Below the pieces are notes generated by a model. That model was not told the origin of the DNA and made no database searches. It saw only the letters and a program-made list of their open reading frames with translations. Below, one piece after another: positions 9,703 to 52,036 of a DNA stretch of 64,000 nucleotides. Within the stretch, counting starts at the first letter, position 1, and the number at the start of each line of letters is the position of its first letter. Location: contig JAISUH010000047.1 in assembly GCA_031272205.1 (NCBI GenBank), forward strand, positions 1 through 64,000, written 5' to 3'. The translations under genes were made by a program, and so were the position numbers. This DNA comes from Dysgonamonadaceae bacterium. GTDB taxonomy: Bacteria; Bacteroidota; Bacteroidia; Bacteroidales; Dysgonomonadaceae.

Positions 9703-9730
9703 AAACGTTGTCGCATGACAAAACAAAAAG

Positions 9731-9761: not shown

Positions 9762-9784
9762 ATCTGTTTTCCTGCGGGAATTGT

Positions 9785-31800: not shown

Positions 31801-31973
31801 CTAAGAATCTGATTAACCGCTTCCATATTAACGAAATTCGTCTCTTTCTGACGGGTTCAAACTTGATTACGTGGTCGAGTTTCAAACTCTGGGATCCGGA
31901 ATCGGCACAACCCCGCGGGGAAGAATATCCCTTGACGAAATCGATAACGATGGGCTTAAGTATCAACTTATAA
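28887..31973 (+). CDS. SusC-like TonB-dependent outer-membrane glycan transporter
   Basis: The 1028-residue product has a signal peptide (MKKYLMIVVTLLLSFSAFAQ) and a carboxypeptidase-regulatory-like domain (VKGTVTDENGEPMIGVNVIVKD). A TonB box-like region (LDEVVVTGMGTQKK) precedes the plug (VSSNLSNVL-type, WVRGISTFG, YILVDGFER, FSVLKDASATAIYGSKGANGVIL), then a 22-strand barrel follows, ending SITMGLSINL. It imports oligosaccharides released at the surface, driven by TonB/ExbBD. The susD gene follows 13 bases downstream. Confidence 0.97.
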   Translation: MKKYLMIVVTLLLSFSAFAQQTVTVKGTVTDENGEPMIGVNVIVKDVPGLGAVTDLDGRYSLKMEPYHQLTFSYIGYKPVVVLVKDEYTINVKMEETESSVLDEVVVTGMGTQKKLTVTGAITNVNVEELKHVPSSNLSNVLAGNVPGILAMQTSGQPGKNTSEFWVRGISTFGASNSAYILVDGFERNNLNEINIEDIESFSVLKDASATAIYGSKGANGVILITTKHGKAGKVNISGKVETSYNTRTITPQFVDGNTYANLANEARITRNMSVLYQPEELEILRLGLDPDMYPNVDWMDVLLKDGAYSYRANVNVNGGGSTARYYVSASYVEDEGMYYTDDTLKKDYDTNANYKRYTYRLNTDVDITKTSLVKIGISGSLAKRNSPGLGDNDVWGELFGYNAISTPILYSNGRIPAVGTGNKTNPWVAATQTGYNENWDNNIQTNITLEQNLEGITKGLRFVGRFGYDTNNSNWINRRRWPDQWKALSRDTETGEIVWDHVSTATDMYQESGSGGDRREFLDLLLSWERAYKEQHHIGATLRYTQDSKKQTVDIGGDIKNGVARRNQGLAGRVTYNWKYRYFVDFNFGYTGSENFAVGHQYGFFPAYSFAWNVAEEPLVKKNASWLEMFKIRYSHGKVGNDNMGDERFPFLYTISGTNTGYNWGTASYNNSDSGLHYTQIASPNVTWEIATKDDLGIDLSLLHNKVSATVDYFHEERTGIYMTRNYLPLITGLESSPKANVGAVRSRGFDGNFSLREKVGNVDITVRGNMTFSKNEVLEKDEENNVYSYQYERGYRVDQQKGLIALGLFKDYDDIRTSPKQEYGVVQPGDIKYKDVNGDGVVNDGDKVAIGATTRPNLIYGLGASFAWKGFDVNVHFQGAGKSTFPIYGKNVFAFSENDWGNIIIGMLEDRWVDSETAAILGIAANEDPNASYPRLSYGGNSNNQQYSSFWLRDGRYLRLKNLDVGYTLPKNLINRFHINEIRLFLTGSNLITWSSFKLWDPESAQPRGEEYPLTKSITMGLSINL

Positions 31974-31986: not shown

Positions 31987-34026
31987 ATGACAAAGAAAAT
32001 ATATCAATTACTGTTAGTCGTGTCGGCTATGGGATTTGCATCGTCCTGTTCCGATTATTTGGACTCAGACAAATATTTTAAAGACCGCACGACCATCGAG
32101 TCGATATTCACCGACCGTGATCGCACCGAACAATGGTTGGCTTATGCCTATTCCTTCCTCACGGGCGCTTGTGCGGATATTATATCCAAGGCCGGCGAGG
32201 GCAGTCCCCATTGCTACGACGATGCGATGTACTTCGGCGACCGCGATGTTACCTACGACCCGAAAGATGCGAACGACCTTTCCTACAACAAATACCGGTC
32301 GGGAGAGTACAGCGAGAACGAATTTAACGAGGTGTGGCCCCGTTGCTATAAAGGGATTTATCAGGCATCGGTTTTTATCCACAATATCGATATGAACCAG
32401 ACGATGACGGATGTGGAACGCACGGATTACAAAGGGCAGGCACGTTTTGTCCGCGCCTATTTCTATTGGCTCTTGCTCCGCAAATACGGCCCCATACCTT
32501 TGATGCCCGATGAAGGGGTGGATTACACCCAGAGTTACGACGACATTGCCACTCCGCGCAGCTCCTACGAGGAAGTCGCCGACTTTATCAGCAGCGAGAT
32601 GGTTCAAGCCGCTAAGGAATTGCAATATACCAAGCGCATCGATAACGAAAACATCTCACGTCCGACCAAAGGAGCAGCCTTGGCAACCCGCGCTTACGCG
32701 CTGATTTTTGCGGCCAGCCCCTTGGCAAACGGAAACGACGACGAGTTTGCTCAGGCTTTGGTTGACGATCAGGGACGCCGTTTGCTCTCCCAAGAATACA
32801 GCGAAGAGAAATGGGCGAAAGCGGCGGCCGCCTGCAAAGACGTGATAGAGCTGGGTGTGTATGACTTGTATCATGCAGCCTTCTCTACAAACGATAACGG
32901 GCTTCACGACCGGCCGACAATCGTTCCTCCGGCCGACGGCAATTTTTCGAATAACGACTGGCCGAAAGGATGGCGGAATATCGACCCCTTTAAATCCTAC
33001 CGGAACCTGTTCGACGGAAATATGCCGGCCGATAACACGGAATTGATTTTCTCGCGGGTAAACAATACCTCTCAAGTAGCGTCCATGGTGATCCACCAAA
33101 TGCCGCGCGACTTTGGCGGATGGAACACGCACGGATTGACCCAGAAGATGGTGGACGCCTATTACATGAACGACGGCAGCGACGTTCCGGGGAAAGATAA
33201 GGAGATAGGCCGTGGCAACGGTTCCGAGCGGCCGACCGGTTTTACGACGCAGGACGATGTGGATGCCGGTCTTTATAAACCCCTGCTCGCGAATGTTTCC
33301 CTGCAATATGCAAACCGCGAACCGCGATTTTATGCTTCGGTGTCCTATAACGGAGCGGTATGGCATTACCTGAGCCGCACCGAACCCAACGACCGCAACC
33401 GTCAGACCTTCTATTACAGGGGCGGCGGCAACGGATTTATGAATACGCCTTTCCATTTGCGCACGGGCATAGGCGTTATGAAATTTGTCAGTCCCGAAGA
33501 TAACCCCAGTAATATCCGTGCTAAATTGGAGCCGGCCATACGTTATGCCGATATCCTGTTGCTCTATGCCGAAGCCCTGAATGAACTCGACGGCAGTTAC
33601 AGCATTGACTCTTGGGACGGCTCGACAACTTATACCATCAACCGCGATAAAGCGGAGATGCAGAAAGGGATTCATCCGGTACGCATCCGCGCCGGTTTGC
33701 CGGACTACTCTTCTTCGGTATATGGAAATAAAGATGAATTGCGGAAAGCCTTGAAACGCGAACGAATGATTGAATTGCTGGGAGAAGGCAAACGTTACTT
33801 CGATCTCCGTCGCTGGAAAGACGCTCCGGTGGAAGAAGCCATGCAGATTTACGGTTGCAACGTGATTATGACTGCGGCACAGCGGGAAGAGTTCCATCAA
33901 CCGGTGGCCATTTTTAATCTGTCTTCGACTTTTTCTCCCAAATTGTATTTCTGGCCGATCAGGCACGACGAGTTGAAACACAACAAACGTTTGACTCAAA
34001 CTCCGGGCTGGAAATCTTATGATTAA
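31987..34026 (+). CDS. SusD-like glycan-binding surface lipoprotein (RagB/SusD family)
   Basis: The 679-residue product has a lipobox with Cys21 (GFASSC) and the SusD N-terminal pattern SDYLDSDKYFKDRTTIESIF. TPR-type helices contain QARFVRAYFYWLLLRKYGPIPLMPD, and the conserved C-terminal RKALKRERMIELLGEGKRYFDLRRWKDA is present. It forms the lid on the SusC barrel. At about 680 residues it is longer than starch SusD (551), which is common in PULs for larger glycans. Confidence 0.97.
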   Translation: MTKKIYQLLLVVSAMGFASSCSDYLDSDKYFKDRTTIESIFTDRDRTEQWLAYAYSFLTGACADIISKAGEGSPHCYDDAMYFGDRDVTYDPKDANDLSYNKYRSGEYSENEFNEVWPRCYKGIYQASVFIHNIDMNQTMTDVERTDYKGQARFVRAYFYWLLLRKYGPIPLMPDEGVDYTQSYDDIATPRSSYEEVADFISSEMVQAAKELQYTKRIDNENISRPTKGAALATRAYALIFAASPLANGNDDEFAQALVDDQGRRLLSQEYSEEKWAKAAAACKDVIELGVYDLYHAAFSTNDNGLHDRPTIVPPADGNFSNNDWPKGWRNIDPFKSYRNLFDGNMPADNTELIFSRVNNTSQVASMVIHQMPRDFGGWNTHGLTQKMVDAYYMNDGSDVPGKDKEIGRGNGSERPTGFTTQDDVDAGLYKPLLANVSLQYANREPRFYASVSYNGAVWHYLSRTEPNDRNRQTFYYRGGGNGFMNTPFHLRTGIGVMKFVSPEDNPSNIRAKLEPAIRYADILLLYAEALNELDGSYSIDSWDGSTTYTINRDKAEMQKGIHPVRIRAGLPDYSSSVYGNKDELRKALKRERMIELLGEGKRYFDLRRWKDAPVEEAMQIYGCNVIMTAAQREEFHQPVAIFNLSSTFSPKLYFWPIRHDELKHNKRLTQTPGWKSYD

Positions 34027-34064
34027 AATTCATGTATGACCTAAGCGTAAAAAAATTATATTGT

Positions 34065-35093
34065 ATGAAAAAAATATATACTTCAATAGTATTGGCTCTG
34101 ATGGCCATGCTTATATGCACTTCCTGCAACGATGAATGGACGGAAGAACAGTTTGAGCATTACATCGCTTTCAGTTCGCCCTTGGATTCGAAAGGGGTAA
34201 CCGTGCTTTACGTTCCTTACAGCCGTAAGGATAGCGACGGGAATTTCCGCATAGGAGAAGGACGGTCGAACTACGAACTGCCGATGATCGTCAGCGGTTC
34301 GACGACTAACGAGCAGAAAATCACCGTACATGTTGCTCACGATCCCGATACGCTGAACGTGCTGAACGTGGAACGTTACCAAAGTCGTACCGACTTGTTT
34401 TATCAGGATATGGGACAGGGTAGTTATGTGTCTTTCCCCGAAACGACGGTTATCGAGTCCGGAGAAGATGTCGGGTTGCTGGATATCAGTTTCGATTTCC
34501 GCGGCATCGATATGTCGAAAAAATGGGTGCTTCCGTTGACGATTGTCGATAATCCTTCTTACAACTATCAATCGAATCCGCGTAAAAACTACGCCAAAGC
34601 TCTGTTGCGGGTTATGCCCTTCAACAGCTATTCGGGCAACTATTCCGGAACGGCTTTGCTGAACTACATTAAGGGCGATGAAGGGAACGGAGCCATTTTG
34701 GCGAACACCATCACGGGATATGTAGTGGACGAGAATACCATATTCTTTTATGCAGGCACCATCAACGAAGATCGTACCGACCGGGCGAATTACAAAATCT
34801 ATGCCGAATTTTCGGGAGGTACGACCGGGGGCGTTATCCGGTTTTACGCGGATAATGCCAATTTGGCCTTTGTGAACAACAAAGAGGCTTCGTACCGTAT
34901 TATCGAAGAGATGGATGCCGTCCGCCCGTATTTGATGCGGCGTTATATCATCATCAATAATATCGATTACGAATACACGGACTATACCTCTGTACCCGGT
35001 TCGAGTATCGTATATTCGGTAAAAGGTTCTCTGACCTTAGAACGGGATATCAATACTCAAATTCCGGACGAAGATCAGGCCATAGAATGGTAA
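34065..35093 (+). CDS. DUF1735/DUF4973-like surface lipoprotein of the PUL
   Basis: The 342-residue lipoprotein (Cys21 in LICTSC) has an N-terminal beta domain (EHYIAFSSPLDSKGVTVLYVPYSR) like DUF1735/BT_3987-type modules. A C-terminal beta domain (SGNYSGTALLNYIKG..., SIVYSVKGSLTLERDI) resembles DUF4973. These proteins occur directly after susCD and are thought to be surface glycan-binding proteins. The ORF track begins at 34032; the ATG at 34065 starts the signal peptide MKKIYTSIVLALMAM and is preferred. A strong hairpin follows. Confidence 0.82.
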   Translation: MKKIYTSIVLALMAMLICTSCNDEWTEEQFEHYIAFSSPLDSKGVTVLYVPYSRKDSDGNFRIGEGRSNYELPMIVSGSTTNEQKITVHVAHDPDTLNVLNVERYQSRTDLFYQDMGQGSYVSFPETTVIESGEDVGLLDISFDFRGIDMSKKWVLPLTIVDNPSYNYQSNPRKNYAKALLRVMPFNSYSGNYSGTALLNYIKGDEGNGAILANTITGYVVDENTIFFYAGTINEDRTDRANYKIYAEFSGGTTGGVIRFYADNANLAFVNNKEASYRIIEEMDAVRPYLMRRYIIINNIDYEYTDYTSVPGSSIVYSVKGSLTLERDINTQIPDEDQAIEW

Positions 35094-35164: not shown

Positions 35165-37726
35165 ATGAATAAAAAAATGTTGAGCTTGCTCTTTTTTCCG
35201 ATTTCGGTTTTAAGTGCATGTCAGGAAAGCGCTCCGCAAAACTATATCATTACCACCGGTCTGTATAGTCAGCTTCGCGCACCGGCCTATCCTTTGGTAA
35301 CGTCCGACCCGTATTTCAGCGGATGGTCTTATACGAACAACCTCTACGACGACCAGACGCGGCATTGGACGGGAAAAGAACTTCCTTTGCTGGGGGCGGT
35401 AAGGGTCGATGGCGAAAGCTATCGTTTCATGGGGAAGGAGAACCTGCCCTTGCGTCCGATTCTCGAAACGGCCAAAACGGATAAATGGACGGGGCAATAC
35501 ACTTTTGACAAGCCCAAAAACGACAGTTGGACCTCTCCCGATTTTGACGATGCTTCGTGGAAAACGGGCGCATCGGCTTTCGGCACAAAAGGTGAACCCA
35601 ACCTCTCGACGCTCTGGAAAACTCCCGATATTTGGGTGCGGCGTTCGTTTGAACTGAGTGAAGATTTATCGGGAAAAAGTATTTTCCTGAATTATTCGCA
35701 CGACGATATTTTTGAACTGTATATCAACGGCAAAAAAGTTGTCGATACCGGCTATTCGTGGCGATACGACGTAACGCAGGAATTGTCGGACGAGGTGAAA
35801 GCCCTGCTCAAAAAGGGCAAAAACGTGATAGCGGCGCATTGCCATAACGTAACGGGCGGCGCATACGTTGATTTTGGCCTCTTCGAAAAGGAGGAAAACA
35901 AAGAGTCCTTCACCCGGACGGCCGTCCAAAAATCGGCCAGCGTTTTGCCTACGCAAACCTTTTATACCTTCGAGTGCGGGCCGATAGAGCTTCAGGTTAT
36001 TTTCACAGCCCCGCTCTTGATCGACGATTTGGAATTGGTTTCCCGTCCGGTAAATTACCTGTCGTATCAGGTGAAATCGCTCGACGGCCAAGCTCACGAT
36101 ATACAAATCTATTTGGAAGCTACGCCTCAATGGGCGGTTAACGAAAACAGCCAAATCGTTGATTTCGATAAAATTGAGAAAAACGGATTCACCTTCCTGA
36201 AAACGGGAACCGTAGAACAGCCCGTTTTGCAAAAGAAAGGCGACGATTTGCGCATCGACTGGGGCTATTTTTATGTCGCCGCGAAATCGGATCCATCGGC
36301 AACGGTGAATTTTGGCGATTACTGGACTGCGAAAAAAGAATTTCAAACATCGGGGCAAATTTCTGCTGATCAACCCGCCTCGTTGTCCGGAGATATGGTC
36401 AAGAGCATGACCGTTTTGGCTTACAGCCGCGATTTGGGCAAGGTGGCGTCCGATTTCAAAACCGGCCACATCTTGTTGGGATACGACGACATATATTCCA
36501 TTCAATATTTCGGAAAAAATCTGAAAGGTTACTGGACGAACGACGGTAAGACGGATATTTTAGCGGCATTTGATAGCGCCGAGAAAGATTACGTTTCCAT
36601 CATGGAAGGTTGCAAAAAATTCGACGAGAAAATGATGGCCGACGCAAAACAATCGGGAGGCGAAAAATACGCCGAACTCTGCGCTTTGGCTTACCGCCAA
36701 TCCATCTCTGCGCATAAGTTGGTGAAAGACGAAGACGGCACACTGCTGTTTTTATCGAAAGAAAACAACAGCAACGGATGCATCAATACGGTGGACGTTA
36801 CTTATCCGTCGGCGCCCCTCTACTTGCTCTATAACACCGAATTGGCAAAGGGGCTGCTCAGCGGCATCTTTTACTATTGCGAAAGCGGCAAGTGGAAATA
36901 TCCCTTCGCACCCCACGACCTCGGCACATACCCCTTGGCCAACGGTCAGGTTTACGGCATGGAAAACGACGATTACGGCAACAAGATGCCGGTCGAGGAA
37001 TCGGGCAATGTGCTCATCCTGACGGCAGCTATCGCTCAAATGGATGGCAATGCCGATTATGCGGCGAAACACTGGCAAACGCTTACTACATGGACGGAAT
37101 TCCTCGTTCAATACGGTGTTGATCCTGAAAATCAACTCTGTACGGACGATTTTGCCGGACATCTTGCCCACAATGCCAACCTTTCCATCAAAGCCGTCAT
37201 GGGGATCGCTTCTTACGGCAAATTGGCTGCAATGCAGGGGAAGAACGACATTGCCGAAAAATACTTGAACATTGCAAAAGGCATGGCTGCCGAATGGCAA
37301 AAAATGGCGGACGACGGCGACCATTACCGCCTCGCGTTCGACCGTCCGGGTTCGTGGAGTCAAAAATACAATTTAGTTTGGGATAAATTGTTAGGATTTA
37401 GTATCTTTGACCCGCAGATCGCAAAGACGGAAATTGCCTATTATTTGAGCCATCAAAATGCCTTTGGTTTGCCTTTGGATAGCCGGAAAACCTATACGAA
37501 ATCGGATTGGATCATCTGGACGGCTACCATGGCTGACAATGCAAACGATTTTGAGGCCTTTATCGATGTGCTCTATAAATACGCCAATGAAACGTCATCG
37601 CGTGTCCCGTTGAGCGATTGGCACGAGACGACGGATGGCCGTCAAGTGGGCTTCAAAGCCCGTTCGGTGGTGGGCGGTTATTTTATGAAAATGTTGAGCG
37701 ATAAAATTCTGGCGGAGACTAAATAA
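35165..37726 (+). CDS. glutaminase A-like protein (DUF4964/DUF5127/DUF4965/DUF1793 type) with inserted jelly-roll
   Basis: The 853-residue lipoprotein (Cys19, VLSAC) shows LRAPAYPLVTSDPYFSGWSYTNNLYDDQTRHWTGKE and later FSKENNSNGCINTVDVTYPSAPLYLLYN. APHDLGTYPLANGQVYG and CTDDFAGHLAHNANLSIKAVMGI are also present. All are typical of the glutaminase A group common in Bacteroidota PULs. Residues about 108-240 (WTSPDFDDASWKTGASAFG, DIFELYINGKKVVDTGYSW) form an inserted beta-galactosidase-type carbohydrate-binding jelly-roll. Glutaminase activity is a database name; the (alpha/alpha)6-like C-terminal half could equally act on a sugar. A hairpin precedes and another follows the gene. Confidence 0.85.
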   Translation: MNKKMLSLLFFPISVLSACQESAPQNYIITTGLYSQLRAPAYPLVTSDPYFSGWSYTNNLYDDQTRHWTGKELPLLGAVRVDGESYRFMGKENLPLRPILETAKTDKWTGQYTFDKPKNDSWTSPDFDDASWKTGASAFGTKGEPNLSTLWKTPDIWVRRSFELSEDLSGKSIFLNYSHDDIFELYINGKKVVDTGYSWRYDVTQELSDEVKALLKKGKNVIAAHCHNVTGGAYVDFGLFEKEENKESFTRTAVQKSASVLPTQTFYTFECGPIELQVIFTAPLLIDDLELVSRPVNYLSYQVKSLDGQAHDIQIYLEATPQWAVNENSQIVDFDKIEKNGFTFLKTGTVEQPVLQKKGDDLRIDWGYFYVAAKSDPSATVNFGDYWTAKKEFQTSGQISADQPASLSGDMVKSMTVLAYSRDLGKVASDFKTGHILLGYDDIYSIQYFGKNLKGYWTNDGKTDILAAFDSAEKDYVSIMEGCKKFDEKMMADAKQSGGEKYAELCALAYRQSISAHKLVKDEDGTLLFLSKENNSNGCINTVDVTYPSAPLYLLYNTELAKGLLSGIFYYCESGKWKYPFAPHDLGTYPLANGQVYGMENDDYGNKMPVEESGNVLILTAAIAQMDGNADYAAKHWQTLTTWTEFLVQYGVDPENQLCTDDFAGHLAHNANLSIKAVMGIASYGKLAAMQGKNDIAEKYLNIAKGMAAEWQKMADDGDHYRLAFDRPGSWSQKYNLVWDKLLGFSIFDPQIAKTEIAYYLSHQNAFGLPLDSRKTYTKSDWIIWTATMADNANDFEAFIDVLYKYANETSSRVPLSDWHETTDGRQVGFKARSVVGGYFMKMLSDKILAETK

Positions 37727-37855: not shown

Positions 37856-39916
37856 ATGCGAATAAATTATGGTAAGTTTTGTGTAGTCCTCTTTTTCCTG
37901 TTTGTTTCATCTTTTGCCTTTTCTTCGGGAAAAGAGAAAATAGCTGTGGTTGAAAGACCTTATACTCAGTCGATTAATTTGAATTATTGGCACAACAGAA
38001 CGCCTCTGTTGCCGCTGAATTTCATAAAATTGCCCGTTGGCGCCGTAAAACCGGAAGGTTGGCTGCTCCGTATGCTCGAACTCCAAAAAGACGGTTTGAA
38101 CGGCCATTTGGGAGAGATAAGCGCGTGGTTGGAAAAAGACAACAACGCATGGCTCGGAACGGGAAACGATTACGGCTGGGAGGAAGTGCCGTATTGGCTG
38201 AAAGGATACGGCAACATGGGCTATATATTGGGCGATAAGGGCATCATCGACGAAACCAAGCAGTGGCTCGAAGCGGTTTTCAAGAGCCAGCGCGAAGACG
38301 GCTACTTTGGCCCTTACATCGAGAAAAACGGCAAACCCGATCTTTGGGGGAATATGATCATGCTCTGGTGCCTGCAATCGTATTACGAATATTCGGACGA
38401 CAGGCGCGTGATCGCTTTGATGACAAAATATTTCCGCTGGCAGTTGAACCTTCCCGACGACAAATTTCTTGAAGATTATTGGGAAAACAGCAGGGGAGGA
38501 GATAACCTGCTCAGCGTGTATTGGTTGTATAACATCACTGGCGATGAGTTTCTGCTGGAACTGGCGGAAAAAATACACCGCAATACGGCCGATTGGCGAC
38601 AACGCTCAAGGCTCCCCAACTGGCACAATGTGAACATTGCTCAATGTTTCCGTGAACCGGCTACCTATTACATGCTCTCGAAAGATTCCGCCGATTTGCG
38701 GGCGACTTACAACGTGCACCATCTGATTCGAAATACCTTCGGGCAGGTTCCGGGCGGAATGTTTGGCGCCGACGAGAATGCGCGGATGGGATATATCGAC
38801 CCGCGGCAAGGTACGGAAACCTGCGGTTTCGTGGAGCAGATGGCTTCCGATGAACTGTTGTTGTCGATGACGGGTGACCCTTTTTGGGCGGAACATTGTG
38901 AGGATGTTGCCTTCAATTCGTATCCCGCCGCGTTGATGCCCGATTTGAAATCGCTCCGATACATCACCTCGCCCAACCATACCGTTAGCGATTCCAAGAA
39001 CCACCACCCCGGAATCGACAACAGCGGACCCTTTTTGGCGATGAACCCTTTCAGCAGCCGTTGCTGCCAGCACAATCACGGTCAGGGTTGGCCTTATTTC
39101 ATCGAACGCCTTATTATGGCGACGCCCGATAACGGGCTTGCCGCGGTTATTTACGGAGCTTGCCGCGCAACGGCATTCGTGGCGGAGGACGGAAGAGCAG
39201 TGGAACTGATCGAAGATACCAATTATCCTTTTGAGGATGTCATCCGTTTTACCATTAATCCCTCGCGGAAAACGGTATTTCCGCTCTATCTGAGGATTCC
39301 CTCGTGGAGCGATAACCCTTCGGTTTCGATAAACGGAAAACGTATTGACGCGGAACTGCAAAACGGAAAATACCTCCGCATTGAGAGGGAATGGAAAAAA
39401 GGCGACAATGTGGAGCTTAAAGTTCCCATGAAACTTTACGAAACGGTCTGGGCGGTAAATCAGGATAGCCGGAGCGTGAATTACGGACCTTTGACTTTTT
39501 CCCTGAAAATAAAAGAGGATTACCGAACCGTAGCGAGCGACAAGACGGCTATCGGCGATTCTAAGTGGCAAAAAAACGCTGATACGGGCAAATGGCCGAG
39601 TTATGAGATTTATCCCGCGAGCGACTGGAATTACGCGCTCGTACTCGACGAATCGCTTCCTTTTGAACAGAATTTCAAAATTGAAAAGCGAAAATGGCCG
39701 ACAGACCATTATCCCTTTACGGTGGAAAACGCGCCGCTGATCCTGAAAACAAAGGGACGAAAACTTATCGGGTGGGAGATCGATCAATATGGTTTGACCG
39801 GAGAGTTGCCTATCAAAGAAAATCGTAACTTTGGAAGTTCGATCGACGAAATCGCGCTGATCCCGATGGGCGCCGCGCGTTTGAGAATATCGGCCTTTCC
39901 CGTCTGTGAAAAATAA
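37856..39916 (+). CDS. GH127-type beta-L-arabinofuranosidase (DUF1680)
   Basis: The 686-residue exported protein (MRINYGKFCVVLFFLFVSSFAFS) is an (alpha/alpha)6 barrel followed by beta domains. GTETCGF and SSRCCQHNHGQGW match the Glu-Thr-Cys and adjacent Cys-Cys that form the zinc site of HypBA1, in which one cysteine acts as nucleophile. Other family blocks are PVGAVKPEGWLLRMLELQKDGLNGHL, VPYWLKG and FPLYLRIPSWSD. The family releases beta-L-arabinofuranose; related DUF1680 families act on other beta-furanosides. Its presence beside mannosidases suggests a mixed glycan. It ends 11 bases before the regulator gene. Confidence 0.9.
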   Translation: MRINYGKFCVVLFFLFVSSFAFSSGKEKIAVVERPYTQSINLNYWHNRTPLLPLNFIKLPVGAVKPEGWLLRMLELQKDGLNGHLGEISAWLEKDNNAWLGTGNDYGWEEVPYWLKGYGNMGYILGDKGIIDETKQWLEAVFKSQREDGYFGPYIEKNGKPDLWGNMIMLWCLQSYYEYSDDRRVIALMTKYFRWQLNLPDDKFLEDYWENSRGGDNLLSVYWLYNITGDEFLLELAEKIHRNTADWRQRSRLPNWHNVNIAQCFREPATYYMLSKDSADLRATYNVHHLIRNTFGQVPGGMFGADENARMGYIDPRQGTETCGFVEQMASDELLLSMTGDPFWAEHCEDVAFNSYPAALMPDLKSLRYITSPNHTVSDSKNHHPGIDNSGPFLAMNPFSSRCCQHNHGQGWPYFIERLIMATPDNGLAAVIYGACRATAFVAEDGRAVELIEDTNYPFEDVIRFTINPSRKTVFPLYLRIPSWSDNPSVSINGKRIDAELQNGKYLRIEREWKKGDNVELKVPMKLYETVWAVNQDSRSVNYGPLTFSLKIKEDYRTVASDKTAIGDSKWQKNADTGKWPSYEIYPASDWNYALVLDESLPFEQNFKIEKRKWPTDHYPFTVENAPLILKTKGRKLIGWEIDQYGLTGELPIKENRNFGSSIDEIALIPMGAARLRISAFPVCEK

Positions 39917-39927: not shown

Positions 39928-42900
39928 ATGAGGAAGTCGCTCCGCTTTTTCCTGTCCCTGTTCTTCCTGCTTGAAGCAGAAAGCGCTTCCTTATTTTGTC
40001 AGTCTCCCGATATTTCTTTCAGGCATCACAACATCAACAACGGCCTTTCGCAGAATACGGTCAGGTCTATTTTCCAAGACAATCAGGGCTTTATGTGGTT
40101 TGGGACGAAAGACGGACTGAATCGGTTTGACGGGAGCTCGTTCAAGATATTCAAATTTTCGCCCGACAGCAAATTAAAAGACAATGTGTTCACCCGTATC
40201 GTACAGGATAAGAACGGGAATCTCTGGCTGGGAACCGACGACGGCGTTTATATTTATGATCCCCGGAAAGACCAATTTGAACAGTTTGGGCAGACAGCTA
40301 CCGGAGGTATATCTCTGAACGGAATTGTTAGCGACTTGCTCTTGGACGATGACGGCGATGTGTGGATTGCGGTGGAAGAAAAAGGCGTTTTCCTGTATGA
40401 TTTTGATACGGACAGACTGACAAATTATGCCATCCCCTCAATTCCCGAAGGGATGAAAATGATTACTTTGTGCGCCGAAAAAGACGGCGTATGGGTTTTC
40501 CCTTACGACATCCCTTTCATGCGAATTAATAAGGAAACGGGAAACATATCGCAATTTCAGTTGAACGACGACCCCGATTTGCTGTACAAACTTGGGGAAG
40601 TGGGGAAAGTTAAAAACGACGAATACAACCAATTGCTGATTAGCTCCTCAACGCAAGGGCTTATCAGCATCAATACGGTGAGTAAAACACATCACGTGCT
40701 GTTGAATAAAGATTCATCTGGGAATCAGATATTTGTGCGTTGTCTCGAAAAAGTCGATCCCCATACTGTCTGGGTCGGGAGCGAATCGGGTTTGTACATA
40801 TACGATACGCAAACCGGCCATGCAATAAATTTGAGGCACAACGCGCTCGTTACTTCATCCATATCGGACAATGCCATCTATTCGATTTATAAGGACAAGA
40901 ACTGCGGTATTTGGGTGGGGACTTTTTTCGGCGGGATAGACTATTATTCCACTCCATACAATAATTTCGAATTGTTTTATCCCATAGCGGGAGCCAATGC
41001 GATGAAGGGATTTCGTATTCGTGAATTTTATCCCGATCCCAATGGCACTATATGGATTGGCTCGGAGGATGAGGGGTTGAATTTGTTTGATCCGGCAAGC
41101 GGAAAATTCTTACCTTTGCCAAAAGCCTTGTCTTCGATACACACCAATATCCATGCTTTGGAGATCGACGGCGATTATTTGTGGATTGGAACTTTTTCGA
41201 GAGGCCTCAACCGGTATAACAGAAAAACGGGAGCGTTGGTAACCTACCGCCATTCCGAAAACAACCCGAAATCCATTTCCAGCAACAGCACTTTCGTCAT
41301 TCATCGAGATCGGCAAAATACCCTGTGGATCGGGAATTTGTCGGGTTTGGACATTTATAATTACGAGGATGACGCTTTCTCTCCGGTTAAACGTTTCGAC
41401 CAGACCTATATACAGGATATTTTCGAAGACACACAGGGTAACATTTGGATTTCGACCTTCAAAAAAGGACTTCATCGTTACGACCCCCTGACCAATAAAT
41501 GGTCGGTTTTCCTTTATGATGCTTCTCGTCCGAGAAACTCCCCGTACAATAAGCTGACCGGCGTGTTTGAAGACAGCCGCAAGCGTCTGTGGGTTACGAC
41601 CGATGGGGGAGGTTTTTATCTTTTCGACAGGGAAACGGAAGTATTTAAGATCTTCAACAGCAGTTCGTCGGGATTGACCAATGATGTGATTTACAGCATG
41701 GAAGAAGACGATGAGGGCTATTTTTGGTTATCGACCAATAAAGGATTGGTGCAATTTGACCCGGAAAAGCAGGTTTTTAAAAATTATACGGTGGAAAACG
41801 GATTGAAAACCAATCAATTCAATTACAGGTCGAGTTGCACGACGCCCGACGGGAATATTTATTTTGGCTCTATTGACGGCTTTGTGCGCTTCGATCCTTC
41901 GAAATTTAAAGACAATTCAAAATTATGCGCCCCCATTGTTTTCACGGATTTTTACATCAATGACAAGCCTGTTAGTCCTCAAACAGACCATTCACCCTTG
42001 AAGCAAAGCATGCTTTATGCCGACGAAATTGTGTTGCCCTACAAGCAAAACTCGTTCAGTATCCGGTATTCTGTGCTGGATTATTCTGCGATGCTGACCG
42101 ATAAAATATCCTACAAACTTGAAGGATTTGACAAAGAGTGGATTAAAGCCGAAAATAAGCAGCCGATTGTTTATTCGAATTTGCGCCCCGGAAGATACCG
42201 CCTCACGGTCAGATTGAATGGCGATGCACAGACCGATCCGGCAATAACCGCAAAAGATTTGGATATTTACATCCGCCCTCCTTTCTGGATGAGCGCTTGG
42301 GCTTATTTGATATACGGTCTTGCATCAATTTCCATATTGGCTTTGCTGATTTACTTTTTGAATTTCAGGGAAAAACAACGGCACCGATTGAAAATGAGTG
42401 AATACAAACAACAGAAAGAAAGGGAGTTATACCAGTCGAAAATCGATTTTTTCACCAATGTGGCTCATGAAATCCGAACGCCGTTGTCGTTGATAAAAGG
42501 CCCGCTCGATTATGTGTTGCTATCGAATAACGTACCCGACAACGTACGGGATAATCTGCAAATCATGAGTAAAAATACCGATCGATTGTTAGACCTCACC
42601 AACCAGTTGCTCGATTTCCGCAAGACCGAATCGGATGTTTACTTGCTGAATCCCAAACTGCAAAACGCATCGGAACTCATTCGGGAAACTTTCTTGCGTT
42701 TTACGCCGATGGCAAAATCGCGGAGATTGAGCTTCAATCTCGATTTGCCCGATCAGGAAATGTTTGTGCGTCTCGATAAAGATGCTTTTCTGAAAATTAT
42801 AAGCAATTTGTTGAATAATGCCGTAAAATATTGCGACAGATACATTGATGTAAAATCCTGTTTGTCGAAGACAAACGACGATGAAACGGATCTTCATTTT

Positions 42901-43959
42901 ATCGTAGAGAACGATGGAGAGCTTATCCCTCCCGATTATAAGGATGAAATATTTAAACCCTTTGTTGCCATCAGTAAGGAAAAGAAAAACGAGAAAATAC
43001 CGGGAACGGGCATCGGGTTGGCGCTGGCGCGTTCGTTAGCCGAACTGCATGCCGGGACCTTATCGCTTGAACCCGACCCGCATTACAATCGTTTCCATTT
43101 AGTGATTCCCTCCAAGAAACCCAAAGCTGATAACGTTGGGGCAATGGATATTTCGGGAGAGAACGAACCTGTGGTTGTAGAGGTTCAAAAGTCCAAAAAG
43201 AAGGAAAAAGAATATCCCTGCACCATCTTGCTTGTGGAAGACGACGCCGAATTGTTGGCTTTCGAAAAACAAATTTTAGCCGCGCAGTATCGGGTGCTGA
43301 TTGCGGAAAATGCGCTTGTAGCGCTCGATCTGTTGAAAACCGAACCGGTGCATCTTATCGTGAGCGACGTTATGATGCCCAAAATGGACGGCTTTGAATT
43401 TACGCGCCGCGTGAAATCGGACATTAATTTCAGCCATATCCCGATTATTTTGCTGACGGCAAAAACCAATGTCCAATCCAAAGTGGAAGGCTTGGGAACG
43501 GGCGCCGACGCTTATATCGAGAAGCCTTTTTCGGTGGAGGTGCTGACAGCGCAGGTCTCTAATTTGATAGAAAGCCGCGAAAAGTTGCGCGAGACCTACC
43601 TGAATTATCCCTTTGTGGGTGTTAATAGCTTGTCGCTTACCGAATTGGAAGATGAGTTTATCCGTAAATTGCAGGCTATTGTTCAATATAATATTGCTGA
43701 CCCCAATTTTGATGCCGGAATTATGGCCGAGAAGTTTAATATGAGTTCGGCCAGCTTATACCGCAAGCTTAAAGGGGTTATGGATTTATCTCCGAACGAA
43801 TACATTCGTATCGAACGCTTAAAAAAAGCAGCCCGATTGCTCAAAGAAAAAACGTACAAAGTGAACGAAATATGTTTTATGGTTGGATTTAATTCCCCCT
43901 CGTATTTCGCGAAATGTTTCTATAAGCAATTCGGCGTTCTGCCCAAAGATTTTGAGTAG
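39928..43959 (+). CDS. hybrid two-component system sensor/regulator (Reg_prop, Y_Y_Y, HisKA, REC, AraC)
   Basis: The 1343-residue protein has a signal peptide, then two seven-bladed Reg_prop propellers (about 30-690: NGLSQNTVRSIFQDNQGFMW, GLTNDVIYSMEEDDEGYFW) and a Y_Y_Y domain (about 715-785). One membrane span follows (WMSAWAYLIYGLASISILALL, about 788-810). Then come a histidine kinase (HEIRTPLSLIKG, His near 848; IPGTGIGLALARSL), a receiver (VSDVMMPKMDGF, Asp near 1147) and an AraC helix-turn-helix (YIRIERLKKAARLLKE... VGFNSPSYFAKCFYKQFG). It senses a breakdown oligosaccharide in the periplasm and activates the PUL. It is unusual in lying inside the operon-like run. Confidence 0.97.
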   Translation: MRKSLRFFLSLFFLLEAESASLFCQSPDISFRHHNINNGLSQNTVRSIFQDNQGFMWFGTKDGLNRFDGSSFKIFKFSPDSKLKDNVFTRIVQDKNGNLWLGTDDGVYIYDPRKDQFEQFGQTATGGISLNGIVSDLLLDDDGDVWIAVEEKGVFLYDFDTDRLTNYAIPSIPEGMKMITLCAEKDGVWVFPYDIPFMRINKETGNISQFQLNDDPDLLYKLGEVGKVKNDEYNQLLISSSTQGLISINTVSKTHHVLLNKDSSGNQIFVRCLEKVDPHTVWVGSESGLYIYDTQTGHAINLRHNALVTSSISDNAIYSIYKDKNCGIWVGTFFGGIDYYSTPYNNFELFYPIAGANAMKGFRIREFYPDPNGTIWIGSEDEGLNLFDPASGKFLPLPKALSSIHTNIHALEIDGDYLWIGTFSRGLNRYNRKTGALVTYRHSENNPKSISSNSTFVIHRDRQNTLWIGNLSGLDIYNYEDDAFSPVKRFDQTYIQDIFEDTQGNIWISTFKKGLHRYDPLTNKWSVFLYDASRPRNSPYNKLTGVFEDSRKRLWVTTDGGGFYLFDRETEVFKIFNSSSSGLTNDVIYSMEEDDEGYFWLSTNKGLVQFDPEKQVFKNYTVENGLKTNQFNYRSSCTTPDGNIYFGSIDGFVRFDPSKFKDNSKLCAPIVFTDFYINDKPVSPQTDHSPLKQSMLYADEIVLPYKQNSFSIRYSVLDYSAMLTDKISYKLEGFDKEWIKAENKQPIVYSNLRPGRYRLTVRLNGDAQTDPAITAKDLDIYIRPPFWMSAWAYLIYGLASISILALLIYFLNFREKQRHRLKMSEYKQQKERELYQSKIDFFTNVAHEIRTPLSLIKGPLDYVLLSNNVPDNVRDNLQIMSKNTDRLLDLTNQLLDFRKTESDVYLLNPKLQNASELIRETFLRFTPMAKSRRLSFNLDLPDQEMFVRLDKDAFLKIISNLLNNAVKYCDRYIDVKSCLSKTNDDETDLHFIVENDGELIPPDYKDEIFKPFVAISKEKKNEKIPGTGIGLALARSLAELHAGTLSLEPDPHYNRFHLVIPSKKPKADNVGAMDISGENEPVVVEVQKSKKKEKEYPCTILLVEDDAELLAFEKQILAAQYRVLIAENALVALDLLKTEPVHLIVSDVMMPKMDGFEFTRRVKSDINFSHIPIILLTAKTNVQSKVEGLGTGADAYIEKPFSVEVLTAQVSNLIESREKLRETYLNYPFVGVNSLSLTELEDEFIRKLQAIVQYNIADPNFDAGIMAEKFNMSSASLYRKLKGVMDLSPNEYIRIERLKKAARLLKEKTYKVNEICFMVGFNSPSYFAKCFYKQFGVLPKDFE

Positions 43960-43985: not shown

Positions 43986-46208
43986 ATGTCAGGGTATAAA
44001 ACATTCATTGTTTGTTTCTTTTTCGCGGTTTCTTTGTTGGGTGTGGCGAGCTGCTTGCTCAAAGCGCAGGACAAGAATCCGAAAGAAGGACAAGAAAAAA
44101 CGGTATTTCAAACCGCCCAGCAATGGAAACCATCCACCGATAACAGGGCTGATGTCGCTATTGTGTATGGAGTAGGGGGGAATCCTTCGGAAAAAATCAA
44201 GGGAAAAACCTTCGAAGAACGTGTCCGGTCTTGGAGAGAGCGCGGGTATATAACTCATTTTATGACAGGGATTGCCTGGGGTGAATATCAGGATTATTTT
44301 ACCGGAGAATGGGATGGGAAATGGCATCTTGATGAGGGTCAGGTGCAACGAAACGGAGACACAATATGGCACGGTCGTTTAGTACCGTATATCGTGCCGA
44401 CCGATAATTACTTGAAATACATCAAAGAAGCGCATGTCAAAAGAGTTATCGATGCAGGAATCGATGCCATTTACATGGAGGAGCCGGAGTTTTGGGCGCG
44501 TGCGGGATATAGCGAAGCCTTCAAAAGGGAATGGAAAAAGTATTACAATTCCGATTGGCAGCCCCAGCATGAATCCCCCGAAAACACCTATCTGTCAAAC
44601 AAATTGAAGTACCATTTGTATTATAAAGCGCTCAACGAGGTATTTACTTATGCAAAAGAATACGGCAAAAGCAAGGGGCTAAACCTGCGGTGTTATGTAC
44701 CTACCCATTCATTAGTCAATTATTCGCAATGGCAGATTGTAAGCCCCGAAGCAAGTTTGGCTTCCTTGCCTTGCGTCGATGGATATATTGCCCAAGTGTG
44801 GACGGGAACAGCCCGCGAACCGAATTATTTTGACGGTTTGGCCAAAGAGCGCGTTTTTGAAACGGCTTTTTTAGAATACGGCTCTATGCAGTCGATGGTA
44901 GCGCCTACGGGGCGTAAGATGTTTTTCCTGACCGACCCTATTGAAGACCGGACGCGGGACTGGGCTGACTACAAAAAAAATTACGAAGCCACATTTACGG
45001 CTCAACTGCTCTATCCCGATATCGCCAATTACGAAGTAATGCCGTGGCCCGACCGGATATACGAAGGTTTATACAAAACAAGCGCCGACAGCGATAAAAG
45101 GGAGAGGATTCCCCGTCATTACTCCACGCAAATGCAGATAATGATCAATGCTTTGAATCGGATGCCCCTTTCTTCGGATTTGATTACCGGCTCGAAGGGA
45201 ATAAGCATATTGATGGCAAATTCGTTGATGTTCCAGCGTTTTCCTGTTCACGACGGCTACGAAGACCCCCAATTGTCCAATTTCTATGGCTTGGCTTTGC
45301 CCTTCTTAAAGCGCGGAGTACCGGTTTCTATTGTACATTTGGAAAACGTGTCGAACAAAGAATCCCTCAAGAATACCAAGGTTTTATTGATGACCTATTC
45401 CAATATGAAGCCCTTATCGCCTTCAGCGCATGATTCTTTGGCCGATTGGGTTAAAACGGGCGGGGTATTGGTGTATAGCGGCAGGGACAACGATCCGTAT
45501 CAGACGGTGCGGGAATGGTGGAACAGCGGTACAAATAATTATCTGTCGCCTTCCGACCATCTGTTTGAAAAAATGGGAATCGAGACATCTCCCAAAGAAG
45601 GTGTTTATCCATACGGAAAGGGTACGGTTTACATATTGCGTTCCGATCCCAAAGAATTTGTTTTGAAAAAAGACGGCGACTGGGAGTTTATCAAGGTTGT
45701 CAAGCAGATGTATGAGCTGAAAGCAAAGGCCGGAAAATTGCTGTTTAAAAACAGTTTTTATCTGAAAAGAGGGAATTATGATCTGATTTCCGTTTTGGAT
45801 GAAAGCGTGAGTACCCTCCCCTACATCGTAAAAGGAGTATTCATTGATCTTTTCGACCCTCAGTTGTCCGTATTATCGGAGAAAATTGTAAAACCGGATG
45901 AGCAGGCATTCTTGTACAATGTGGATCGCGTTGTGGATAAGAAGAAGCCTCAAACGCTGGCTTCCGCATGTCGGGTTTACGATGAAAAAACCCTGAGACG
46001 GACGTATTCATTTGTGGCTAAAAGTCCCGCAAACACGACCAATGTCATGCGGATTTTACTGCCATCCAAGCCGCTGAACTGTTCGCTGAACAACGAAAAA
46101 GGCGAAACGCTGCAAGGTATGGAACAGTCGTGGGACGAACGGAGTAAAACGTGCCTGCTGATTTTCGAAAACAGCCCCGAAGGGGTATTTGTAGAAATTA
46201 AATATTGA
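43986..46208 (+). CDS. unassigned exported protein, putative TIM-barrel glycoside hydrolase with GATase-like domain
   Basis: The 740-residue product has a lipobox with Cys23 (LLGVASC). The first half reads like a clan-A-type barrel: ADVAIVYGVGG, GYITHFMTGIAWGEYQ, AGIDAIYMEEPEFWARAG (acidic cluster after a strand, as at an acid/base position) and VDGYIAQVWTGTARE. The middle region (ISILMANSLMFQRFP, VPVSIVHLEN, KVLLMTYSNMKPLSP, LADWVKTGGVLVYSGRDND) resembles the class I glutamine amidotransferase-like domain of GH42 trimerisation modules. The tail is beta-rich. I cannot place it in a numbered GH family. It follows the regulator by 26 bases and precedes GH125. Confidence 0.7.
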   Translation: MSGYKTFIVCFFFAVSLLGVASCLLKAQDKNPKEGQEKTVFQTAQQWKPSTDNRADVAIVYGVGGNPSEKIKGKTFEERVRSWRERGYITHFMTGIAWGEYQDYFTGEWDGKWHLDEGQVQRNGDTIWHGRLVPYIVPTDNYLKYIKEAHVKRVIDAGIDAIYMEEPEFWARAGYSEAFKREWKKYYNSDWQPQHESPENTYLSNKLKYHLYYKALNEVFTYAKEYGKSKGLNLRCYVPTHSLVNYSQWQIVSPEASLASLPCVDGYIAQVWTGTAREPNYFDGLAKERVFETAFLEYGSMQSMVAPTGRKMFFLTDPIEDRTRDWADYKKNYEATFTAQLLYPDIANYEVMPWPDRIYEGLYKTSADSDKRERIPRHYSTQMQIMINALNRMPLSSDLITGSKGISILMANSLMFQRFPVHDGYEDPQLSNFYGLALPFLKRGVPVSIVHLENVSNKESLKNTKVLLMTYSNMKPLSPSAHDSLADWVKTGGVLVYSGRDNDPYQTVREWWNSGTNNYLSPSDHLFEKMGIETSPKEGVYPYGKGTVYILRSDPKEFVLKKDGDWEFIKVVKQMYELKAKAGKLLFKNSFYLKRGNYDLISVLDESVSTLPYIVKGVFIDLFDPQLSVLSEKIVKPDEQAFLYNVDRVVDKKKPQTLASACRVYDEKTLRRTYSFVAKSPANTTNVMRILLPSKPLNCSLNNEKGETLQGMEQSWDERSKTCLLIFENSPEGVFVEIKY

Positions 46209-46305: not shown

Positions 46306-47751
46306 ATGACAACACGACGAGATTTCATCAAAAAAGGCGGTATTGGTCTTGCGGCCATCGCCATCAATCCCTCAACCGTTTTTTCGTCAACGCCAAGCGT
46401 TGAACAAAAAGGAGGATACATATCCAACCGCCCGCCGGTGGCTGACAGGCATTTCACTTCGAAGGCGGTGGAAGAAACCATTCGCCGGATAAAGCCGAAA
46501 ATCAAAGACCCTAAGTTGGCGTGGATGTTCGAAAATTGTTTCCCCAATACCTTGGATACGACGGTCAATTATAAAAAGACCAACGGCAAACCCGATACGT
46601 TTGTTATCACCGGCGACATCGACGCCATGTGGCTTCGTGATTCGTCGGCGCAAGTTTGGCCTTACGTGCAGCTGACCAAATCGGACAAAGAATTGAAGCA
46701 ATTGGTTGCGGGTGTAATCAACCGTCAAACGCAATGTATCCTTATCGACCCGTATGCAAACGCATTCAACCACGATCCCATCCCCGACGGGGAATGGATG
46801 AAAGACAAGACTGCGATGAAGCCCATGTTGCACGAACGCAAGTGGGAGATCGATTCGCTGTGCTATCCCATCCGTTTGGCGTATCATTATTGGAAAACAA
46901 CGGGCGATGCTTCGGTTTTCGACACCGATTGGAAGAAAGCCATGGCTTTGGTATTGCAAACTTTTAAGGAACAGCAGCGCAAAGACGGACTGGGACCCTA
47001 CAGTTTCCTGCGCGTTACCGATCGTGCTTTGGATACCGTTCCCAATGATGGTTACGGACATCCCGTGAACCCTGTGGGGTTGATTGTTTCCGCCTTCCGT
47101 CCTTCCGACGATGCCACCACTTTCGGTTTCCTTGTTCCGTCGAACTTGTTTGCTGTTACGTCCTTGCGCGAAGTGGCCGAAATCTCCGAAAAGATCACCA
47201 AAGACGCCCTTTTTGCAAACGAATGTAAGGCTTTGGCCGACGAAGTGGAGACCGCTCTTCGGAAATACGCCCTGACTACTCACCCGAAATACGGAACAAT
47301 TTATGCTTTCGAAGTAGATGGTTTCGGCAATACCTATTTCATGGACGACGCTAATGTGCCGAGCCTCTTGGCTTTGCCCTATCTGGGCGCCCTCGACAAG
47401 AACGACCCGGTGTATCAGAATACGCGCAAATTTGTGTTGAGCAGCGATAATCCGTATTTCTTTAAAGGATCTGCAGGTGAAGGAATCGGCGGGCCGCATA
47501 TCGGATACGATATGATCTGGCCGATGAGCATCGTTATGCGAGCCATGACCAGTACGAGCGACGATGAAATCAAGATGTGCATGAAAATGCTCCGCGATAC
47601 CGATGCCGAAACGGGTTTCATGCACGAATCCTTCAATATCAACAATCCCGAAAAATTTACCCGCAAATGGTTTGCATGGGCAAATACTTTGTTCGGAGAA
47701 TTGGTTGTAAAACTCGACTCGGAACATAAAATCCACTTGCTGAATGTATAA
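46306..47751 (+). CDS. GH125 exo-alpha-1,6-mannosidase
   Basis: The 481-residue product starts with a Tat signal (TTRRDFIKKGGIGLAAIAIN) and so is folded before export. The family blocks ITGDIDAMWLRDSSAQVWPYV, LIDPYANAFNHDP, ERKWEIDSLCYPIRLAYHYWK and FRPSDDATTFGFLVPSNLFA are intact. GEGIGGPHIGYDMIWPMSI follows. The family is metal-independent and inverting, and removes terminal alpha-1,6-mannose. The GH92 gene follows 20 bases downstream. Confidence 0.95.
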   Translation: MTTRRDFIKKGGIGLAAIAINPSTVFSSTPSVEQKGGYISNRPPVADRHFTSKAVEETIRRIKPKIKDPKLAWMFENCFPNTLDTTVNYKKTNGKPDTFVITGDIDAMWLRDSSAQVWPYVQLTKSDKELKQLVAGVINRQTQCILIDPYANAFNHDPIPDGEWMKDKTAMKPMLHERKWEIDSLCYPIRLAYHYWKTTGDASVFDTDWKKAMALVLQTFKEQQRKDGLGPYSFLRVTDRALDTVPNDGYGHPVNPVGLIVSAFRPSDDATTFGFLVPSNLFAVTSLREVAEISEKITKDALFANECKALADEVETALRKYALTTHPKYGTIYAFEVDGFGNTYFMDDANVPSLLALPYLGALDKNDPVYQNTRKFVLSSDNPYFFKGSAGEGIGGPHIGYDMIWPMSIVMRAMTSTSDDEIKMCMKMLRDTDAETGFMHESFNINNPEKFTRKWFAWANTLFGELVVKLDSEHKIHLLNV

Positions 47752-47771: not shown

Positions 47772-50054
47772 ATGAATATAAAAAAACTCCTTTTACTTTT
47801 CGCTCTCACCTGCGGTACGACTATGGCGCAGGTGGAGTATGAACCGGTGGACTATGTAAGTACGCTGGTGGGAACGCTCTCCAAATTTGAGCTCTCTACC
47901 GGAAACACGTATCCCGTGGTAGCTTTGCCTTGGGGAATGAATTTTTGGACGCCCCAAACCGGAAAAATGGGCGACGGGTGGCAATATCGTTACGATGCCG
48001 ATAAAATCAGGGGGTTCAAACAAACCCACCAACCCAGTCCGTGGATAAACGATTACGGACAGTTTTCCATCTTTCCGATGACCGGAAGTCCCGTTTTCGA
48101 CCAAGATAAACGTGCCAGCTGGTTTTCGCATAAGGCCGAAATTTCCAAACCCTATCATTACAGCGTTTATTTGGCTGATTATGATGTAACTACCGAAATC
48201 GTCCCAACCCAACGTGCGGCTGTTTTTCGCATGACCTTCCCCGAAACCGACAGCGCTTTTGTGCTGGTGGACGCTTTCGACAGAGGGTCGTCTGTTGAGA
48301 TTATTCCCTCCAAAAATGCGATTGTCGGTTACACGACCCGCAATAGCGGCGGTGTCCCCGAAAATTTCAAAAACTATTTCGTCATGGTTTTTGATAAACC
48401 TTTTTCGTTGAAGTATGGCGTGAAAAACGGCAAGATTTTGGCGAATGTGGACAAGGTAACAGACAATCATGCCGGCGCTTTTGTGGGTTTTAAAACCAAG
48501 CGGGGCGACAAAATTACGATTCGCACGGCTTCATCCTTCATCAGTTACGAACAGGCATGGCAAAATCTGAAAGAGGTGGAAGACAAAACCTTCGAAAGAG
48601 TGATGGCCGACGGCCGCGCCGCGTGGAACGATGTATTGGGAAAAATTCAAATAGAGGGAGGCTCTTTCGACCAAAAACGCACGTTTTATTCCACGTTGTA
48701 TCGCTCAACGCTTTTTCCTCGAAAATTGTATGAAATCGACGCGGACGGGAAAGTGTTGCATTACAGTCCGTATAACGGAAAAATCCTCCCCGGTTACATA
48801 TATACCGATACCGGTTTTTGGGATACCTTCCGTTGTCTGTTCCCGTTGCTCAATTTGGTGTATCCTTCCGTTAATACTGAAATTCAGGAAGGATTGTTGA
48901 ATACCTACAAAGAGAGCGGTTTCCTGCCCGAATGGGCCAGCCCGGGACATCGCGGCTGTATGGTAGGCAACAATTCTGCTTCGGTGGTGGCGGACGCTTA
49001 TCTGAAAGGTTTGCGCGGATACGACATCGAAGCGCTCTACGAAGCCCTTTTGCATGGAGCGAATCATGTTCATCCCTCGGTTTCGTCAACCGGCCGTCTC
49101 GGATACCAGTATTACAATACGCTCGGTTATGTGCCGTATAATGTTGGTATCAACGAAAATGCAGCTCGTACTTTGGAATACGCTTACGACGACTGGACGA
49201 TTTACAAGCTGGGAAAAGCATTGAACCGTCCGATAAGCGAAACCGCTCTGTATGCGAAACGCAGTCAAAATTACCGCAACCTTTATTCGTCGGAATACAA
49301 ACTGATGCGGGGCAAAAACGAGGATGGCTCTTTCCAAACGCCGTTCAGCCCCTTCAAGTGGGGCGACGCTTTTACCGAAGGCAACAGCTGGCATTACACG
49401 TGGTCGGTTTTCCACGACCCGCAGGGATTGATTGATTTGATGGGCGGGAAAAAAGAATTTGTCGCTATGCTGGATTCCATTTTCATCCTCCCCCCCGTTT
49501 TCGATGACTCTTATTACGGCGGTGTAATTCATGAAATCCGTGAGATGCAAATAATGAATATGGGGCAGTATGCCCATGGGAATCAGCCCATTCAACACGT
49601 GGTTTACCTTTACAATTACGCCGGTGAACCGTGGAAAACCCAATATTGGGTGCGTGAAGTGATGGATAAGCTTTATACGCCCGGCCCCGACGGTTATTGC
49701 GGCGATGAGGATAACGGCCAGACTTCGGCCTGGTATGTGTTTTCGGCAATGGGTTTTTATCCCGTTTGTCCGGGAAGCAACGAATATGTGATTGGTTCGC
49801 CTCTGTTCGATAAAATAAGCCTTCATCTCGAAAACGGGAAAAAGATAGAGATTGAGGCCGACAACAATGTTCCGTCGAAGCGCTATATATCCTCGTTGAA
49901 GGTGAACGGAAAACCGTATTCGAAGAATTATTTCAAGCACGAAGATTTATTGAAAGGTGCAAAAATCGATTTTTCGATGTCCGGCGTTCCCAATAAATCG
50001 CGAGGCGTTGCCCCCTCCGATTTCCCGTATTCGTTCTCCAATAACAATCAATGA
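47772..50054 (+). CDS. GH92 exo-alpha-mannosidase
   Basis: The 760-residue exported protein (signal MNIKKLLLLFALTCGTTMAQ) begins with the beta-sandwich pattern VDYVSTLVGTLSKFELSTGNTYP. The (alpha/alpha)6 domain has DTFRCLFPLLNLVYPS, TEGNSWHYTWSVFHD, MGQYAHGNQPIQHVVYLYNYAG and the catalytic-base loop GDEDNGQTSAWYVFSAMGFYP. GH92 enzymes are calcium-dependent inverting alpha-mannosidases of varied linkage. The linkage (1,2; 1,3; 1,4; 1,6) cannot be read from sequence here. With GH125 it would trim side chains and backbone of alpha-mannan or high-mannose glycan. Confidence 0.95.
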   Translation: MNIKKLLLLFALTCGTTMAQVEYEPVDYVSTLVGTLSKFELSTGNTYPVVALPWGMNFWTPQTGKMGDGWQYRYDADKIRGFKQTHQPSPWINDYGQFSIFPMTGSPVFDQDKRASWFSHKAEISKPYHYSVYLADYDVTTEIVPTQRAAVFRMTFPETDSAFVLVDAFDRGSSVEIIPSKNAIVGYTTRNSGGVPENFKNYFVMVFDKPFSLKYGVKNGKILANVDKVTDNHAGAFVGFKTKRGDKITIRTASSFISYEQAWQNLKEVEDKTFERVMADGRAAWNDVLGKIQIEGGSFDQKRTFYSTLYRSTLFPRKLYEIDADGKVLHYSPYNGKILPGYIYTDTGFWDTFRCLFPLLNLVYPSVNTEIQEGLLNTYKESGFLPEWASPGHRGCMVGNNSASVVADAYLKGLRGYDIEALYEALLHGANHVHPSVSSTGRLGYQYYNTLGYVPYNVGINENAARTLEYAYDDWTIYKLGKALNRPISETALYAKRSQNYRNLYSSEYKLMRGKNEDGSFQTPFSPFKWGDAFTEGNSWHYTWSVFHDPQGLIDLMGGKKEFVAMLDSIFILPPVFDDSYYGGVIHEIREMQIMNMGQYAHGNQPIQHVVYLYNYAGEPWKTQYWVREVMDKLYTPGPDGYCGDEDNGQTSAWYVFSAMGFYPVCPGSNEYVIGSPLFDKISLHLENGKKIEIEADNNVPSKRYISSLKVNGKPYSKNYFKHEDLLKGAKIDFSMSGVPNKSRGVAPSDFPYSFSNNNQ

Positions 50055-51066: not shown

Positions 51067-51082
51067 TGATTTTTAGATTAAA

Positions 51083-51120: not shown

Positions 51121-51134
51121 ATCGTTTAAAAATA

Positions 51135-52010: not shown

Positions 52011-52036
52011 TTTTTTATATTTAAAATTAGACATTT

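Follow-up and report, generated by a model that had tools for sequence, protein, structure and literature searches.

A conserved protein of Bacteroidota alpha-mannan loci: a candidate new family of glycoside hydrolases

Introduction

The enzymes that most resemble the protein described here do so in setting or in shape. By setting, they are the families GH76, GH92 and GH125, whose catalytic domains have (alpha/alpha)6-type folds, and GH99, a TIM barrel with a glutamate pair (Glu333/Glu336). By the shape of the barrel, they include GH168, GH191, GH36 and GH66, several of which use a carboxylate on strand beta-6. GH195 is a new alpha-mannanase family, described as GH99-related (PMC13063451). GH42 and GH164 enzymes form trimers via their middle domain; the GH164 enzyme Bs164 acts on beta-mannosides and carries Glu160 on beta-4 and Glu297 on beta-7 (PMC7105311). 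Ignavibacterium IaSGT is a GH35 protein (PMC8861115). GtaA-like proteins are annotated as glutaminases; a study that found no glutaminase activity suggested glycosidase activity (PMC9668830).

Here we describe a 740-residue exported protein encoded by a Dysgonamonadaceae bacterium, within a window of 64,000 nucleotides (the whole stretch of DNA that was analysed). Our literature searches turned up no description of this protein. That GH92/GH76/GH125 have so strongly conserved and uncharacterised a partner in many Bacteroidota genera suggests that a step of alpha-mannan breakdown is still missing. Once its activity is named, a gap in the annotation of polysaccharide utilization loci (PULs) would be filled, a new CAZyme would become available for glycan dissection, and the contrast between these loci and the studied yeast-mannan loci could be explained.

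The gene and its locus

The reading frame begins with ATG and has no internal stops. It belongs to an operon-like series of genes on one strand, in the order SusC, SusD, binding lipoprotein, GtaA-like protein, GH127, regulator, the present gene, GH125 and GH92 (Table 1), the last four being separated by gaps of 26, 97 and 20 bases. Its position between regulator and GH125 is thus as given in the preliminary description. The GtaA-like protein probably serves this pathway as a glycosidase and is not a glutaminase.

Table 1. Features of the gene, its locus and the encoded protein, in window positions (the fusion: positions in locus L187)
Feature	Position	Strand	Basis or remark
SusC-like transporter	28887..31973	+	
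SusD-like binding protein	31987..34026	+	
Surface glycan-binding lipoprotein (DUF4973/BT_3044-like)	34032..35093	+	
GtaA-like protein (DUF4964/DUF5127/GtaA hairpin), probably glycosidase	35165..37726	+	PMC9668830
GH127-like enzyme	37856..39916	+	
Hybrid two-component regulator (HTCS)	39928..43959	+	
Exported protein of unnamed family, 740 aa	43986..46208	+	no Pfam/NCBIfam/PDB match
Signal peptide, lipobox-like VAS-C (residues 1-25)	43986..44060	+	by eye; predicted helix 5-25
(beta/alpha)8 barrel (residues 36-398)	44091..45179	+	predicted structure, full-length and barrel alone
E165 E166 P167 E168, end of beta-4	44478..44489	+	each Glu unchanged in all 49 members, Paenibacillus among them
D317 P318 I319 E320 D321, end of beta-7	44934..44948	+	D317, E320 and D321 invariant
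E350 in strand beta-8	45033..45035	+	invariant
GATase/Rossmann-like middle domain (residues about 399-580)	45180..45725	+	predicted structure; weak Pfam hits
Beta-rich C-terminal domain (residues 590-740)	45753..46205	+	predicted structure
GH125 exo-alpha-1,6-mannosidase family	46306..47751	+	
GH92 exo-alpha-mannosidase family	47772..50054	+	
Fusion ORF of GH92 and the present family, 1472 aa	L187 9312-13730	-	

Further genes of the window and its genome were noted in passing. Immediately upstream of SusC (27328-28836) lies the gene for a 502-residue TIG-domain protein, in the place that GH76 occupies in other loci. Just past GH92, on the minus strand (50179-53509), a xylose-isomerase-like barrel, a 3-keto-disaccharide hydrolase domain and a Gfo/Idh/MocA oxidoreductase form a trio resembling a set for the 3-keto glycoside cleavage pathway; the latter two also adjoin the family member at locus L025. 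Elsewhere in this genome (G000) there are several GH106 rhamnosidase-type genes (9 matches on contigs C10, C45, C50 and C100, some of them pieces of one gene).

Distribution and conservation

Relatives of the protein are encoded at 295 candidate loci in a scan of GTDB contigs. The 80 that were kept are all from Bacteroidota (Dysgonomonas, Parabacteroides, Bacteroides, Sphingobacterium, Alistipes and others) and are 64-82% identical in their best segment. Within the same order, 18 of 295 genomes gave a match (one a fragment only), as did 19 of 150 genomes from a further family of the same class, the match being weak and partial in two. A more distant relative, 40% identical, is encoded on a Paenibacillus plasmid, directly downstream of the genes for a carbohydrate ABC transporter and the associated binding protein, and has no evident signal peptide.

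In the barrel region, some 50 positions keep the same charged, amide or aromatic residue in all of 49 members, and the barrel is the best conserved part of the protein (mean column identity 78% versus 58% for the whole). A chance match is hard to reconcile with relatives of 40-82% identity in many genera and with these invariant residues; the protein belongs to a real, widespread and well-conserved bacterial family.

The same pattern bears on whether the protein is an enzyme at all. It could be a glycan-binding or degenerate protein with a glycosidase fold, or perform other chemistry (e.g. as an epimerase, lyase or esterase). Marine mannan loci do hold GH99-related proteins without catalytic machinery, going by a title cited in PMC13063451, and the carboxylates discussed below match no textbook pair. 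On the other hand, conservation that peaks in the barrel, with many invariant acidic and aromatic residues, is what an active site would show, and the Paenibacillus protein, lacking an evident signal peptide and encoded behind a transporter, looks more like an intracellular enzyme than a surface binder. We consider a non-hydrolytic role very unlikely.

Association with alpha-mannan loci

Among 81 loci, the neighbours counted were SusC (52), a DUF3823 protein (53), GH92 (43), the GH76 family (41), GtaA-like proteins (34) and GH125 (7). Of the 53 loci with both flanks complete, 45 have GH92, GH76 or GH125 no more than 10 kb away; the mannosidase locus of the preliminary description is a setting seen across the family. 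GH92 is present at 33 of these 53 loci, whereas chance alone would place it in about 0.7 of the 53 if each is taken as a 22-kb window. This expectation uses the background in 60 genomes of the order (about 120 matches, roughly 0.6 per Mb) and rises to about 3 of 53 when the richest genome is taken instead. A plausible YDDQMW motif, read by eye, is present in the GH76-like neighbours.

The link is closest in genome G401 (L187/L096), where a GH92 domain and a family protein form one natural fusion in a single open frame, next to a second GH92 gene and two GtaA-like genes. Together with the 45 loci, this fusion argues for a role in alpha-mannan breakdown. Against it stand the other 8 of the 53 loci, which gave no GH92, GH76 or GH125 match at the threshold used, and the members at L191 and L194, which lie outside any recognisable PUL. 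The Paenibacillus gene, which follows a carbohydrate transporter and binding protein, also counts in favour of the proposed role.

Two single loci add detail. The L194 member (8287-10746, minus strand), near SecDF, ends in a sub-threshold T9SS sorting tail. At L193 (7960-17800), the family member sits beside GH32, an aldose epimerase, GH92 and two GH76 genes.

Sequence and profile searches

The absence of a nameable family, claimed from the first reading of the sequence, was borne out in the databases searched here. Pfam and NCBIfam gave no match for the protein, and no relative was found among PDB sequences with either the single sequence or a 51-member profile; Ras and endolysin matches from the profile search were chance matches. 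When 49 diverse members were scanned singly against Pfam, the middle domain gave weak hits to DUF4350 (10/49) and GLMA_2nd (5/49) and, in one member, a weak sub-cut-off hit to Glyco_hydro_42M (PF08532). Any other hits were scattered and single, and neither GH42 (PF02449) nor GH99 (PF16317) was hit by any of the 49. The weak matches at L119/L120 were also set aside: these frames of 700+ residues read by eye as zinc carboxypeptidases, and only their GATase-like stretch aligns.

Profile-profile alignment (hhalign) against GH42, a second GH42-like set, GHL6, GH66, GH106 and a weak GH99-like set reached a probability of at most 6.5%, in an alignment that spans the GATase region, with the test limited by the low diversity of our family alignment (Neff 2.2). 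For GH42 the value was 0.7% and for the GH99-like set 2.3%; the controls behaved as they should (GH42 versus GHL6, 96%; GH42 versus the second GH42 set, 99.9%). Relative to Pfam, NCBIfam, the PDB and these profile sets, it is reasonable to regard the protein as representing a candidate new glycoside hydrolase family, which may coincide with a recent CAZy family.

Predicted fold

The structure was predicted with AlphaFold from an alignment with 48 family members (the Paenibacillus row excluded). The full-length model has a pLDDT of 90.9 and a pTM of 0.90; the barrel folded alone has a pLDDT of 83. Most of the layout expected in the preliminary description is seen in the model: a barrel with strands at 57-61, 89-95, 133-136, 161-165, 235-241, 266-271, 311-316 and 348-352, then a Rossmann/GATase-like domain (about 400-580) and an all-beta tail (590-739), which is the domain order of GH42. 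The acidic cluster YMEEPEF (163-169), said to follow a strand, sits at the end of predicted strand beta-4. The label of lipoprotein fared less clearly: the signal is hydrophobic and is followed by the lipobox-like VAS-C at residue 23, but relatives show a mixture of lipobox and ordinary signal peptides (by eye and regular expression only), so that a lipoprotein is plausible rather than proved.

Against the PDB, the full-length model is closest to GH42 beta-galactosidases (4uzs, E 3e-15, TM 0.51), with Ignavibacterium IaSGT and a GH164 beta-mannosidase among the other top matches. TM values are about 0.5 and rmsd values 7-8 A, and so the likeness to GH42/GH164 is one of plan rather than detail. 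The barrel alone did not rank GH42, GH5 or GH39, the folds first proposed for comparison, among its best matches; these were GH168, Cwp19, GH191, GH36 and GH66 (E about 1e-7 to 1e-5). GH99 does not appear in the first 50 barrel-only matches. Nor does GH42, so that the likeness to GH42 is largely owed to the arrangement of the domains.

Candidate active site

The conserved residues suggest that, on the predicted model, the active site would sit on the C-terminal face of the barrel. We infer as candidate catalytic residues E165/E166/E168 after strand 4 and D317/E320/E350 at strands 7 and 8. None of these carboxylates varies among 49 diverse members, the most distant of them 42% identical, and the same is true of D321 after strand 7, of H241 (which ends strand 5) and of Q270 (close to where strand 6 ends). 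At or directly after the end of beta-4, the three glutamates lie where clan GH-A (GH42, GH164, GH5, GH35) has its acid/base. At beta-7, the strand gives way directly to D317, and E320 follows four residues past the strand; no glutamate is in the canonical place. The beta-6 carboxylate of the GH-D type (GH27/GH31/GH36) and of GH66 is missing, beta-6 ending in Q270-V-W-T273.

The protein might instead be a retaining, GH-A-like glycosidase of the same locus whose target is a beta-linkage or a decoration other than mannose (e.g. galactosyl, arabinosyl or beta-mannosyl), E166 serving as acid/base and D317 or E320 as nucleophile. Two of the best full-length matches, GH42 and GH164, are retaining beta-glycosidases (PMC7105311), 'EEP' resembles the 'NEP' motif of clan GH-A, and GH127 at 6 loci and GH43 or GH2 at others hint at decorated mannans. 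This reading is possible but unlikely: barrel-only structure searches do not favour GH-A, the Asn that precedes the acid/base is replaced by Glu, beta-7 has an Asp, and the partners common to most loci are alpha-mannosidases.

Proposed role

The family is probably a hydrolytic, unclassified family of alpha-mannan loci. For the protein itself, we think it fairly likely that it is a glycoside hydrolase, of a family outside those tested, acting on alpha-mannan-derived glycans in the periplasm or at the outer membrane. A hydrolase is suggested by the three-domain fold matching GH42, GH164 and GH35-type enzymes, by a barrel matching many glycosidase barrels, and by invariant carboxylates at the C-terminal ends of strands. 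What argues against it is the lack of any sequence or profile relation to known glycoside hydrolases, the full-length TM of about 0.5, and the place of Q270 on beta-6 and of a non-glutamate on beta-7.

We infer activity, substrate and oligomeric state as follows. SusC/SusD and the binding proteins would import oligosaccharides, GH76 or GH125 would cut alpha-1,6-mannose linkages and GH92 would trim alpha-mannosyl ends. The protein would probably remove a linkage left by the others, the likeliest target being an alpha-linked side residue, alpha-mannosyl or other, and its GATase-like domain would probably form an oligomer, as in GH42. A bolder version, which we offer tentatively and hold to be rather doubtful, makes it the founder of a new type of alpha-mannan-active glycosidase: an oligomeric GH42-like plan with an active site of its own (EEPE plus Asp/Glu at beta-7/8), possibly the neighbouring-group (epoxide) mechanism of GH99, and a need for it at some linkage of fungal or environmental alpha-mannans that GH92/GH76/GH125 cannot cut. 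On the predicted structure and the locus context, we consider that the protein may well represent a new family of glycoside hydrolases.

Comparison with known systems

GH42 enzymes (e.g. PDB 4uzs, 5e9a) share with the protein the order of barrel, GATase-like domain and beta tail and a conserved Glu after beta-4, but have their Glu nucleophile where its beta-7 ends in T316-D317. Bs164 of GH164 (6t7g) shares the three-domain plan, comes from Bacteroides and uses a manno-configured substrate; it differs in acting on beta-mannosides, whereas the present loci are alpha-mannan loci, and identity in the structural alignment is 12-14%. The barrels of GH168, GH191, GH36 and GH66, several of them from alpha-acting enzymes, are the best matches for the barrel, although the likeness is weak (TM about 0.43-0.52 to the query) and GH66 gave no profile match. 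The endo-alpha-mannanases of GH99/GH195 share the alpha-mannan setting, and E165/E168 have the i and i+3 spacing of the GH99 pair, though perhaps not its place in the barrel. Finally, GH76, GH92 and GH125 are not homologous to the protein (no Pfam hit), yet they share its loci, probably its pathway and, in the case of GH92, one natural fusion.
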